Shown here: one piece after another, positions 31,079 to 34,728 of the stretch
Layout: every line of letters starts with the position of its first letter
How positions within the stretch are numbered: the first letter of the stretch is position 1
Origin: an uncultured Acetobacteraceae bacterium
Lineage (GTDB): Bacteria; Pseudomonadota; Alphaproteobacteria; Acetobacterales; Acetobacteraceae
NCBI GenBank assembly: GCA_937873095.1
Contig: CALMVI010000035.1
Coordinates: 1 to 37,153, forward strand
Length of the DNA: 37,153 nt
Direction of reading: 5' to 3'
Notes under the pieces: generated by a model
What the model was told of the DNA's origin: nothing
The model's database searches: none
The model's input: the letters and a program-made list of their open reading frames with translations, nothing else
Position numbers and translations under genes: made by a program

Positions 31079-32110
31079 CTAGGCCGCGATCTGCCGCAGC
31101 AGCCCCTGCGCCACCAGGGTCTCGGCGATCTGCACCGCGTTCAGTGCCGCGCCCTTGCGCAAATTGTCCGACACGCACCAGAAGCCCAGCCCGTTGGGCA
31201 CGGTCGGGTCGCGGCGCAGGCGGCTGACATAGACGGCGTCCTCGCCCTGGCACTCGGCAGGGGTGATGTAGCCGCCGTCGTCCCGGCCGTCGACCACCAC
31301 CACGCCCGGGAAGGTGCGGAGCAGGTCGCGCGCCTCACCCAGATTGACCGGCTGCTCGAACTCCACGCTCACCGCCTCGGCGTGGCCGATGAACACCGGC
31401 ACCCGCACGCAGGTGGCGAACACGGCGATGTCGGCGCCCATGATTTTCCGGGTCTCCACCGCCATCTTCCACTCCTCGCGGGTGGCGCCGTCATCCATGA
31501 AACGGTCGATGTGGGGAATGCAGTTGTAGGCGATGTTTTTCGTGAACACCTGCGGCTGGGCGGGGTCGTTGACGAAGAAGGCCTTGCTGCTGGTGAACAG
31601 CTCGTCCATGCCTTCCTTGCCCGCGCCGGACACCGACTGGTATGTGCTGACCACCACGCGGCGCGCGGTGAACCGGTCGTGCAGGGGCTTGAGCGCCATC
31701 ACCATCTGGATGGTGCTGCAATTGGGGTTGGCGATGATGCGCCGGCGGGCGTGCCGGGCCAGTGCCTGCGGGTTCACCTCCGGCACCACCAGCGGCACGT
31801 CGGGCTCCATGCGGAACTGGCTGGTGTTGTCGATCGCGATGCAGCCCACCGCCGCCGCCCGCGGGGCGTGCACGGCGGAGACCGACGCGCCCGGGCTGAA
31901 CAGGCCGAGATCCCAGCCGGCGAAATCGAAGGTTTCGGTGTTGCGCACCGTCAGCACGCGCTTCTCGCCGAAGCTGACCTGCTGGCCGGCCGATCGCGGG
32001 GAGGCCAGGGCTGCCACGTCGTCCACCGGGAAGTCGCGCTCGGCGAGCGTTTTCAGCATTTCGCGCCCGACTGCGCCGGTGGCGCCTACGACTGCGACCT
32101 TGTAGCCCAT
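31079..32110 (-). CDS. asd: Aspartate-semialdehyde dehydrogenase
   Basis: Asd makes aspartate semialdehyde, the branch point to lysine, diaminopimelate, threonine and methionine. The 343-residue protein starts with the NADP-binding motif VAVVGATGAVGREML. The catalytic Cys lies in NPNCSTIQM near residue 130, and substrate-binding QSVSGAGKEGMDEL follows. The ATG at 32110 is preferred to a GTG at 32377, which would need translation through the palindromic intergenic region. A GGAG is present 12 nt upstream. It diverges from the glucoamylase gene. Confidence 0.96.
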   Translation of the reverse strand: MGYKVAVVGATGAVGREMLKTLAERDFPVDDVAALASPRSAGQQVSFGEKRVLTVRNTETFDFAGWDLGLFSPGASVSAVHAPRAAAVGCIAIDNTSQFRMEPDVPLVVPEVNPQALARHARRRIIANPNCSTIQMVMALKPLHDRFTARRVVVSTYQSVSGAGKEGMDELFTSSKAFFVNDPAQPQVFTKNIAYNCIPHIDRFMDDGATREEWKMAVETRKIMGADIAVFATCVRVPVFIGHAEAVSVEFEQPVNLGEARDLLRTFPGVVVVDGRDDGGYITPAECQGEDAVYVSRLRRDPTVPNGLGFWCVSDNLRKGAALNAVQIAETLVAQGLLRQIAA

Positions 32111-32343
32111 GGGCGTGTGTGACTCCGAAAGAAGGCTGGGGGCTTTGCCCCCAGACCCCCACCAAAGGCCAGTCGGCCTCTGGACACCATTAATAGGGGT
32201 AGGGCTAAGGGGGCCACCCGGTTCTAGGCCAAACGGCGGGTCGGCCCCCTTAGCCCTACCCCTACATAAACAGGTTCTAAGGACGACTGTCCTTAGCGGG
32301 GTCCAGGGGCAGAGCCCCTGGCCTTCCTTCGGAGCACACACCC
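32111..32343. repeat. Nested palindromic intergenic region between asd and the glucoamylase gene
   Basis: The outer arms, 32111-32159 and 32298-32343, are inverted copies with about six differences and two small gaps. They reach both start codons, so both leaders begin with the same C-GGAG-CACACACCC type sequence. Each arm holds a hairpin: CTGGGGGC-TTT-GCCCCCAG at 32136-32154 and CCAGGGGC-AGA-GCCCCTGG at 32303-32321. Inside lies a perfect 22-bp inverted repeat, 32194-32215 with 32243-32264, around a 27-nt loop. An 8-bp stem (CTAAGGAC-GACT-GTCCTTAG) sits at 32277-32296. Confidence 0.85.
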
Positions 32344-34728
32344 ATGGAAGCACCAGGCGCACCCGGCATCGCCCCACGCTGGACCTCGTCGGACAAGAGC
32401 GGCGTCGGCACCGCGCTGTCGCCCACCAGCCGTGTCTGGTTCACCATCAGCCACGGCATCCTCAACGAATGCTACTACCCGCGCGTCGACCAGGCGTGCA
32501 TACGCGATTTCGGCTTCATCGTCGCCGACGGAAACGGCCTGTTCGCCGAGGAGAAGCGCGACACCGACAGCGTGATCACCGCACTCGAGGACGGCGTCCC
32601 CGCCTACGAGCTGGTCAACACCCACCGCCCGGCCGGCGGCGGCAAGCCGCGGTTCAGGATCGTCAAGCGCGTCATCACCGACCCAAGGCGCGACGTGGTG
32701 CTGCAACAGGTGCGCCTGGAGCGGCTGGACGGCGCGCCCCTGCGGCTGTACGCGCTGCTGGCACCGCATCTGGTCAACGCCGGCAGCGACAACACCGCCT
32801 GGCTGGACAGCCACAAGGGGCAGCAGATGCTGTTCGCCGAAGGGGGCGGCGCTGCCCTGGCGCTGGCCGCCAACTGCTCCTGGGCCAGGCGCTCGGTCGG
32901 GTTCGCCGGCATCAGCGACGGGTGGCAGGACCTGTCCCGCCACGGCGGGCTGACCTGGGAGTACGACCGCGCGGTCAACGGCAACGTGGCGCTGGTCGGC
33001 GAGGCGGCCCTGCCCGAAGACGGGCAGGCGGTGTTCGCGCTGGGCTTCGGCCGAAGCGCGGGCGAGGCGGCGTTCCGCGCCCGGGCCAGCCTGTTCGACG
33101 ATTTCGACGCGCTGGCCGAGGAATACGCCGCCACCTGGCGGGGCTGGCAGGCCGGGCTGCGTCCCCTCGACCGGCGCGCCGGGCCGGGCGGCCACAACAC
33201 CTACCGGGTCAGCACCGCGGTGCTGCGGACGCACGAGGCGCCGAGCTTCCGCGGCGGCTTCATCGCCAGCCTGTCCATCCCCTGGGGTGCGGCCCGCGGC
33301 GACGACGACCTGGGCGGCTACCACCTGGTCTGGCCGCGCGACCTGGTGGAGACGGCCGGCGGCCTGCTCGCGGCCGGCGCCGGCGCCGAAGCGATGCGGG
33401 TGCTGGAATACCTGCGCGCCACCCAGGAGCCGGACGGCCACTGGCCGCAGAACAATTGGCTCGACGGCACCGCCTACTGGCAGGGCGTGCAGATGGACGA
33501 GTGCGCCTTCCCCATCCTGCTCGTGGACATGGCAAGCCGCGCCGGCGTGCTGCCCGAGGCCGAACGCGCCCGCTACTGGCCGATGGTGCGGGCGGCCGCC
33601 GGGTTCCTGACCCGCAACGGCCCGGTCACCGGCCAGGACCGTTGGGAGGAGAACGCGGGCTACTCCATCTTCACCCTCGCGGTCGAGGTTGCGGCCCTGC
33701 TGGTGGCGGCCGAGCTCGCGGCATCGGCCGGTGCGGCCGACACCGCGCGGTTCCTGGAGGACACCGCCGACGCCTGGAACGACGCGGTCGACGGCTGGAC
33801 ATACGCGCGCGGCACCGCGCTCGCCGGGACGCTCGGGGTGGACGGCTACTACGTCCGCATGGCGCCGGCCTGCCCGCCATCGGCCGCGTCGTCGCTCGAC
33901 CGGCTGGTGCAGATCAAGAACCGGCCGGACGGGGAGGGCATGATCCCCGCCCACGACATCGTCAGTCCTGACGCGCTGGCGCTGGTGCGGTTCGGCCTGC
34001 GCGCGGCCTCCGACCCGCGTATCGTGAGCACCATCGCCGCGATCGACCACTCGGTCAGGGTGGATTTGCCGGCCGGACCCTGCTGGTACCGCTACACCGG
34101 CGACGGCTACGGCGAGCATCCCGACGGCCGGCCGTTCGACGGGGTGGGCCAGGGCCGGCTGTGGCCGCTGCTGACCGGCGAGAGGGCGCATGTCGCCGTC
34201 GCCGCGGGCGACCTGGACGCCGCGCGAGGGCTGCTCGCCACCCTGGAGGCCTGCACCAGCCGCGGCGCGCTGCTGCCCGAGCAGGTCTGGGACACGGACG
34301 ACATTCCCGAGCGGGAGCTGTATCGCGGCCACCCGAGCGGTTCGGCGATGCCGCTGGTCTGGGCGCATTCGGAGCACATAAAGCTGCTCCGCTCGATCGC
34401 GGACGGCCGGGTCTTCGACATGCCGCCCCAAACCGTCCGGCGCTACCAGACAGAGAGCCATCCGCCCCGCGTGGCGCCGTGGCGCCCGGACTTCCGGCCG
34501 GACACGGTGCCACGCGGACGCGCGCTGCGCATCGAGCTGCCCGAACCTTCGGTGGTGCTGTGGAGCGGCGATGGCTGGGCCAGCTCGGCCGAGCTGCCCA
34601 CTGCCGACACCGGGCTCGGCGTGCACGCTGCCGAGTTGCGCATGGACGGCCGGAGTGTGGAGTTCACCTGGCGGGCGGCTGCCACCGGCGCCTGGGCGGG
34701 CGCGAACTACGCCGTCGGTGTCGCATGA
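32344..34728 (+). CDS. GH15 glucoamylase-type glycoside hydrolase
   Basis: The 794-residue protein has an N-terminal beta-sandwich of the bacterial glucoamylase/glucodextranase kind (about 15-270) and a GH15 (alpha/alpha)6 barrel. The barrel includes YHLVWPRDLVETAGG near 325-339, QDRWEENAGYS with the catalytic acid Glu near 435, and LPEQVWD with the second Glu near 645. It releases glucose from the non-reducing ends of starch, glycogen or dextran-like chains. No signal peptide is seen (N-terminus MEAPGAPGIAPRW), so it is probably cytoplasmic and may act on glycogen or trehalose-like material. A GGAG lies about 10 nt before the ATG. It diverges from asd. Confidence 0.92.
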   Translation: MEAPGAPGIAPRWTSSDKSGVGTALSPTSRVWFTISHGILNECYYPRVDQACIRDFGFIVADGNGLFAEEKRDTDSVITALEDGVPAYELVNTHRPAGGGKPRFRIVKRVITDPRRDVVLQQVRLERLDGAPLRLYALLAPHLVNAGSDNTAWLDSHKGQQMLFAEGGGAALALAANCSWARRSVGFAGISDGWQDLSRHGGLTWEYDRAVNGNVALVGEAALPEDGQAVFALGFGRSAGEAAFRARASLFDDFDALAEEYAATWRGWQAGLRPLDRRAGPGGHNTYRVSTAVLRTHEAPSFRGGFIASLSIPWGAARGDDDLGGYHLVWPRDLVETAGGLLAAGAGAEAMRVLEYLRATQEPDGHWPQNNWLDGTAYWQGVQMDECAFPILLVDMASRAGVLPEAERARYWPMVRAAAGFLTRNGPVTGQDRWEENAGYSIFTLAVEVAALLVAAELAASAGAADTARFLEDTADAWNDAVDGWTYARGTALAGTLGVDGYYVRMAPACPPSAASSLDRLVQIKNRPDGEGMIPAHDIVSPDALALVRFGLRAASDPRIVSTIAAIDHSVRVDLPAGPCWYRYTGDGYGEHPDGRPFDGVGQGRLWPLLTGERAHVAVAAGDLDAARGLLATLEACTSRGALLPEQVWDTDDIPERELYRGHPSGSAMPLVWAHSEHIKLLRSIADGRVFDMPPQTVRRYQTESHPPRVAPWRPDFRPDTVPRGRALRIELPEPSVVLWSGDGWASSAELPTADTGLGVHAAELRMDGRSVEFTWRAAATGAWAGANYAVGVA

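Follow-up and report, generated by a model that had tools for sequence, protein, structure and literature searches.

The window, a 37,153-nt stretch of DNA that makes up contig 35 of a 3.69-Mb genome in 162 contigs, contains two divergent genes whose start codons are separated by 233 bp. The nearest relatives of its asd place the genome in the Acetobacteraceae. On the left, asd reads leftward from a start codon at 32110-32108 and is 86% identical to its counterpart in the congener G001. On the right is a GH15 gene, the N-terminus of which aligns by eye with homologues in genomes G012 and G058; no homologue was found in G001 or in a second congener, G002. The entire gap is one giant imperfect palindrome, made up as follows.

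31079..32110, minus strand: asd, aspartate-semialdehyde dehydrogenase, 343 amino acids (Pfam Semialdhyde_dh and Semialdhyde_dhC)
32111..32134, minus strand: asd-side arm, which is the asd leader, with GGAG at 32126-32123; locus-specific, mirrors 32326-32343 (sequence, flank comparisons)
about 32135..32328, no strand: core of the dispersed element (query: gap bases 25-218; 99% identical copy at G000:C106:19326-19519)
32136..32154, no strand: left outer hairpin 1, CTGGGGGCTTTGCCCCCAG (sequence, predicted fold, terminator/promoter scan)
32162..32183, no strand: left hairpin 2, CCAAAGGCCAGTCGGCCTCTGG (sequence, predicted fold)
32194..32264, no strand: central hairpin, a perfect 22-bp stem (32194-32215 and 32243-32264) with a 27-nt loop (inverted-repeat search, copy comparison)
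32277..32296, no strand: right hairpin 2, CTAAGGACGACTGTCCTTAG (sequence, predicted fold)
32303..32321, no strand: right outer hairpin 1, CCAGGGGCAGAGCCCCTGG (sequence, genome matches, predicted fold)
32326..32343, plus strand: GH15-side arm, which is the GH15 leader, with GGAG at 32331-32334; mirrors the asd leader (sequence, flank comparisons)
32344..34728, plus strand: GH15 gene of glucodextranase/glucoamylase type, 794 amino acids (Pfam Glucodextran_N and Glyco_hydro_15)

From the outside in, each half thus consists of a locus-specific arm, hairpin 1 and hairpin 2, with the central stem and loop between the two halves. The whole 233 nt is predicted to fold as a single hairpin, at -169.7 kcal/mol for the plus strand (z = -14.0) and -179.5 kcal/mol for the minus strand (z = -14.9), and none of 200 shuffles was equally stable on either strand. 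An earlier, sequence-only reading of the window had described inverted arms that reach both start codons, giving the two genes the same leader and ribosome site, around a perfect 22-bp inverted repeat, and both descriptions held. The repeat is the central stem listed above, and the outer arms, TTCGGAG(T)CACACAC(G)CCCATGG read toward the gene on each side, match up to both start codons, which are both in use. Comparison of the 40-nt flanks (32092-32131 and 32326-32365) gave a mirror score of 18, which was reached by none of 20,000 single-base shuffles and by 2 of 20,000 pairs of positions drawn at random from the window. No Rfam family matched within the window at gathering score, and identity with an Rfam RNA was rejected.

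A dispersed palindromic core with a changing central stem

The core of the gap is a dispersed, non-autonomous, REPIN-like palindromic element of roughly 195 bp found in Acetobacteraceae. Besides the copy in the window, its own genome has three more: the 99% identical copy already listed, a related copy at C106:5039-5243 (84% identity) and another at C80:89731-89899 (81% identity, one end incomplete). Hairpin 1, alone or beside other hairpins, occurs at about 40 scored places among 148 candidates in this genome. When the copy L003 was used as query, 22 of 100 genomes, the window's included, had matches at E 1e-6 or better, mostly to one end of the element. Acidiphilium rubrum ATCC 35905 (L046, G100) has 40 scored places among 114 candidates, and at 36 of the 40 the match spans 184 or more of the query's 201 bases; two congeners have only a few copies. 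In 30 A. rubrum copies examined by eye, the core ends in AAGGCC...GCCTT or similar. By a crude home-made codon model, the A. rubrum elements are mostly extragenic, and the gene calls of this model place 15 of 30 between convergent, 10 between codirectional and 5 between divergent genes. Plasmid-borne copies were considered and rejected, as two element queries gave no match.

The central stem changes in sequence while its pairing stays perfect. The four copies in the window's genome agree at every position of the 30 and 31 nt that border the centre; copies L001 and L002 share a centre, and L003 and L004 have other stems, of 22 and 20 pairs. The inner stem thus differs in sequence in two of the three other copies and is still perfectly paired. 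Between L002 and L003, 9 of 22 stem pairs are changed on both sides and none is broken. Stems of elements in genomes G006, G016, G030, G035 and G058 likewise differ in sequence and length, with up to 60 perfect pairs.

Several further observations concern the repeats themselves. For G058, 10 of 20 fetched stretches (L220, L225, L226, L230, L231, L234 and L236-L239) end at a contig end that lies at the matched element end or within about 75 bases of it; assemblies thus seem to break off at the element, and the true number of copies may be higher than counted. At L283 in A. rubrum, the right outer hairpin is interrupted by another hairpin-forming stretch, apparently a nested insertion. The window's genome also contains a compact two-hairpin repeat (AAGGCCAGGGGC...GGGGTTTGAAACCCCAGACCCCC) at 20 places (L013-L038), which has hairpin 1 in common with the element. 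A second palindromic repeat family, A/T-rich and with arms CTTCTTTTTT...AAAAAAGAAG, lies in the left flanks of L281 and L285 in A. rubrum; at L285 its own outer flanks also look mirrored, and L039:2135-2236, close to asd in a relative of the window's genome, holds a similar palindrome.

Mirrored flanks and the gene ends within them

We compared the 40 nt outside the left end of each element with the reversed 40 nt outside its right end in nine genomes, the window's among them. Pairing of ends, in which a loose regular expression was applied to loci chosen by BLAST, gave 45 pairs; removal of five duplicate or wrong pairings, of L164, L178, L242 and L252 (right end misplaced), and of flanks shorter than 40 nt left 32. 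The mean score was 14.5 for a copy's own flanks, 8.2 for cross pairs from the same genome and 6.7 for cross pairs from other genomes. For 20 of 31 copies the own pair scored above all cross pairs from its genome, in several cases by one point; L165, which has no same-genome cross pair, is not in this denominator. The 11 not above their best cross pair were L004, L150, L156, L162, L168, L170, L176, L179, L181, L184 and L254.

In A. rubrum, 30 of the 40 scored places were used, including the query's own locus, L260. Own pairs averaged 23.3 versus 9.3 for 870 cross pairs, and the own opposite flank ranked best of 30 for 28 copies; at L277 it came third, and at L283, a copy interrupted at its right end, it came 25th. 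When windows were lengthened and scoring was tightened, the own pair was above all cross pairs for 23 of 28 copies (L283 and L287 left out). Mirroring was strong to 60 nt, weak from 60 to 80 nt and absent farther out. Arms varied in quality, from 42 of 42 bases identical at L281 to 39 of 50 at L265. The 19 short two-hairpin repeats of the window's genome had no mirroring (own 6.8 versus cross 6.7, P 0.34). At most of the copies examined, the two flanks are mirror images of each other and differ from site to site.

Some of the mirrored flanks include host gene sequence. At L261, the right flank holds, in inverted orientation, the last codons of the pyrroline-5-carboxylate reductase (proC-like) gene on the left, and a related gene end in the congener G101 has no element behind it. 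The ends of a triosephosphate isomerase gene (tpiA, L275) and an ETF-domain gene (L274) are mirrored, and at L281 the mirrored stretch takes in the final codon plus stop of an enoyl-ACP-reductase-like gene. At L222 in G058, one flank includes the start codon of a cation-efflux gene, and the other flank repeats this codon in mirror image; no reading frame longer than 90 codons begins in that other flank. In G101, Acidiphilium sp. STC_13, the end of a tpiA-like gene is duplicated behind it in a tandem repeat of some 26 bases (L319).

The arms do not travel with the core, since L264 and L265 have cores that differ at no position and arms that are unrelated. The same holds for L001 and L002, the cores of which are 99% identical: their flanks are unrelated, and those of L002 mirror each other. 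The earlier suggestion that a repeat insertion supplied both leaders therefore stands for the core, which has copies elsewhere in the genome and in the Acetobacteraceae, but is not supported for the leaders. Genome-wide, the asd-leader motif matches exactly at this locus alone, so a shared leader family was rejected. Judged by these sequence comparisons, the asd and GH15 leaders are not part of the dispersed unit that holds the inner hairpins.

Origin of the arms

The most likely reason for the likeness of the leaders is that one was copied as the mirror image of the other. On balance, we think it somewhat more likely than not that the element is a non-autonomous palindrome whose hairpin lets replication switch template, copying one flank over the other. 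The element comprises two inverted ends, with two small hairpins each, around a long variable central stem, and its DNA could fold as one long hairpin during or after insertion. A polymerase on one arm could then switch to the other, continue beyond the element's limit into the opposite flank, and return. A mirror copy of one neighbour's flank would thereby be written over the other side, and the same switching would preserve full pairing in the central stem as its sequence drifts. asd and GH15 would have a common leader because the copied stretch takes in the ribosome-binding site and extends as far as the start codons, and the match would require no regulatory role. One cause, template switching, fits both the perfect, drifting stems and the mirrored flanks. 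Reverse-complement copying and homogenisation of arms by template switching are described in passages of published work (PMC8794818, PMC8604942, PMC7202029). With a chance that we put a little short of even, the process may be general: a mobile palindrome that mirrors its surroundings, overwriting ribosome sites and first or last codons on the opposite side, could be an engine for rewriting leaders and gene ends throughout Acetobacteraceae.

A single perfect copying at a recent insertion does not fit, because mismatched arms occur beside identical cores. This combination needs repeated patchy copying, gene conversion of the core, or arms that predate the core. Arm score did not correlate with core divergence (rho -0.11, P 0.57, n 29, L283 left out), and a prediction that arm length follows gene distance failed (rho -0.35 for the nearer and -0.22 for the farther gene, n 13, not significant).

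Arms that predate the core would be expected if the element inserts into long imperfect palindromes that already exist, such as hairpins at gene ends. We consider this unlikely but far from negligible. It explains how identical cores can be bordered by arms that are imperfect and unrelated (L264, L265) and fits the leaning toward convergent gene ends in the crude gene calls, and REPs are known targets of insertion sequences (PMC1525189). However, a scan of 81 kb of A. rubrum flanks for side-by-side arms found only 2 places scoring at least 20, versus 19 of 30 element flanks, and both places were, by eye, copies of the second, A/T-rich palindromic repeat. The arms also contain start, stop and final codons of unrelated genes, and related gene ends in G101 lack such a palindrome (by eye, with synteny lost there). 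No clean empty site was recovered, as synteny was broken at the loci read in G101 and G102, and insertion into existing palindromes is therefore the main rival still standing. The orthologous site L073 in Acidiphilium sp. STC_13 has one decayed hairpin and weak mirroring that 65 of 5000 shuffles equalled. Lower still is the probability that the arms are the element's own outer part, old, diverged from site to site and kept complementary by selection on the hairpin. The arms in G016 do have a common consensus, with same-genome cross scores up to 18, and terminal steps resembling AAGC/AAGG recur (by eye), but unrelated arms beside identical cores and gene codons within arms both argue against it.

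We regard it as very improbable that the palindrome is a selected regulator, as in the earlier proposal that hairpins in the two leaders govern translation or prevent read-through. The predicted folds do have two hairpins in each leader, as that proposal held, and the GH15 GGAG and start codon fall in a further weak stem-loop, with two bases of the GGAG paired. The asd GGAG, however, is predicted to be unpaired, and the leader folds are not unusual compared to shuffles (z -1.2 and -1.9). No sigma-70-like promoter was found, and there was one terminator-like site, reading toward asd, where 0.3 would be expected by chance. The loose expression for element ends gave many false matches in asd neighbourhoods and was replaced there by BLAST with real ends. 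Among 80 asd loci from relatives (some shortened by contig ends), none had a match to any of eight such ends next to the start of asd; full-size pairs of ends occurred in 1 of the 80 loci, and for 30 of the loci no element was seen in the 150 bases ahead of asd. The congeners G001 and G002, examined by eye, have neither the element nor the common leader upstream of asd, an absence that the earlier reading had named as one half of what would refute it. We take the common leader to be a by-product rather than a switch.

If template switching beside the element is the correct explanation, two unrelated genes can gain a common ribosome-binding leader without selection. It also calls for caution, since matching leaders or covarying stems do not necessarily indicate regulation. 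Strains polymorphic for the element would show how long palindromes arise and stay perfect.

Comparison with known systems

As described in the relevant passages of PMC3116915, REPINs consist of two inverted palindromic units with conserved ends and a spacer, and are extragenic, present in many copies and non-autonomous. The element resembles them in being an inverted doublet of palindromic units that is dispersed and mostly extragenic. It differs in having two hairpins per end, a variable and perfect central stem, and mirrored flanking DNA, which those passages on REPINs do not mention. A RAYT domain (PF01797) was found in 2 of 16 genomes searched, all 16 with element-end matches and A. rubrum not among them, and neither gene has hairpin 1 within its 3.3-kb locus. 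A RAYT-driven REP was thus rejected, and no transposase for the element was identified. By eye, no GTAG or CGTC tag stands at the hairpin foot at the core ends of 30 A. rubrum copies; CGTC repeats are missing in Acetobacteraceae according to a passage in PMC3733652. Since the element has the layout of a REPIN but neither a linked RAYT nor such a tag, we call it REPIN-like. In the window's genome a single Y1/RAYT-like gene was found (L189, G000:C100:9149-9478); the neighbouring reading frames repeat the peptide GADVAALFR, which suggests that the gene has its own, different flanking repeat.

Other systems have parts of the pattern. The repetitive hairpin-forming and double-hairpin elements of mitochondria are dispersed and some carry complementary substitutions; they are organellar, and the passages on them in PMC2800124 do not mention mirrored flanks. 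The coding palindromes of Nematomorpha mitochondria are, in the account given in PMC6649704, long perfect inverted repeats within functional sequence, and differ in not being tied to a mobile element. In the portions of the open-licence PMC literature covered, we found no description of this Acetobacteraceae element or of mirrored flanks.

A further likeness, in mechanism, is to template switching at quasipalindromes, in which, according to passages of PMC8794818, PMC8604942, PMC7202029 and PMC3820800, reverse-complement copying makes or repairs stems and homogenises arms. The flanks described here are likewise locus-specific reverse-complement copies of adjacent host sequence. The difference is that the switching proposed here would occur at many sites, next to a dispersed element, and extend tens of bases into host flanks and gene ends. 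If so, REPIN-like elements and template switching would be joined in one process that can be seen at dozens of sites within a single genome.
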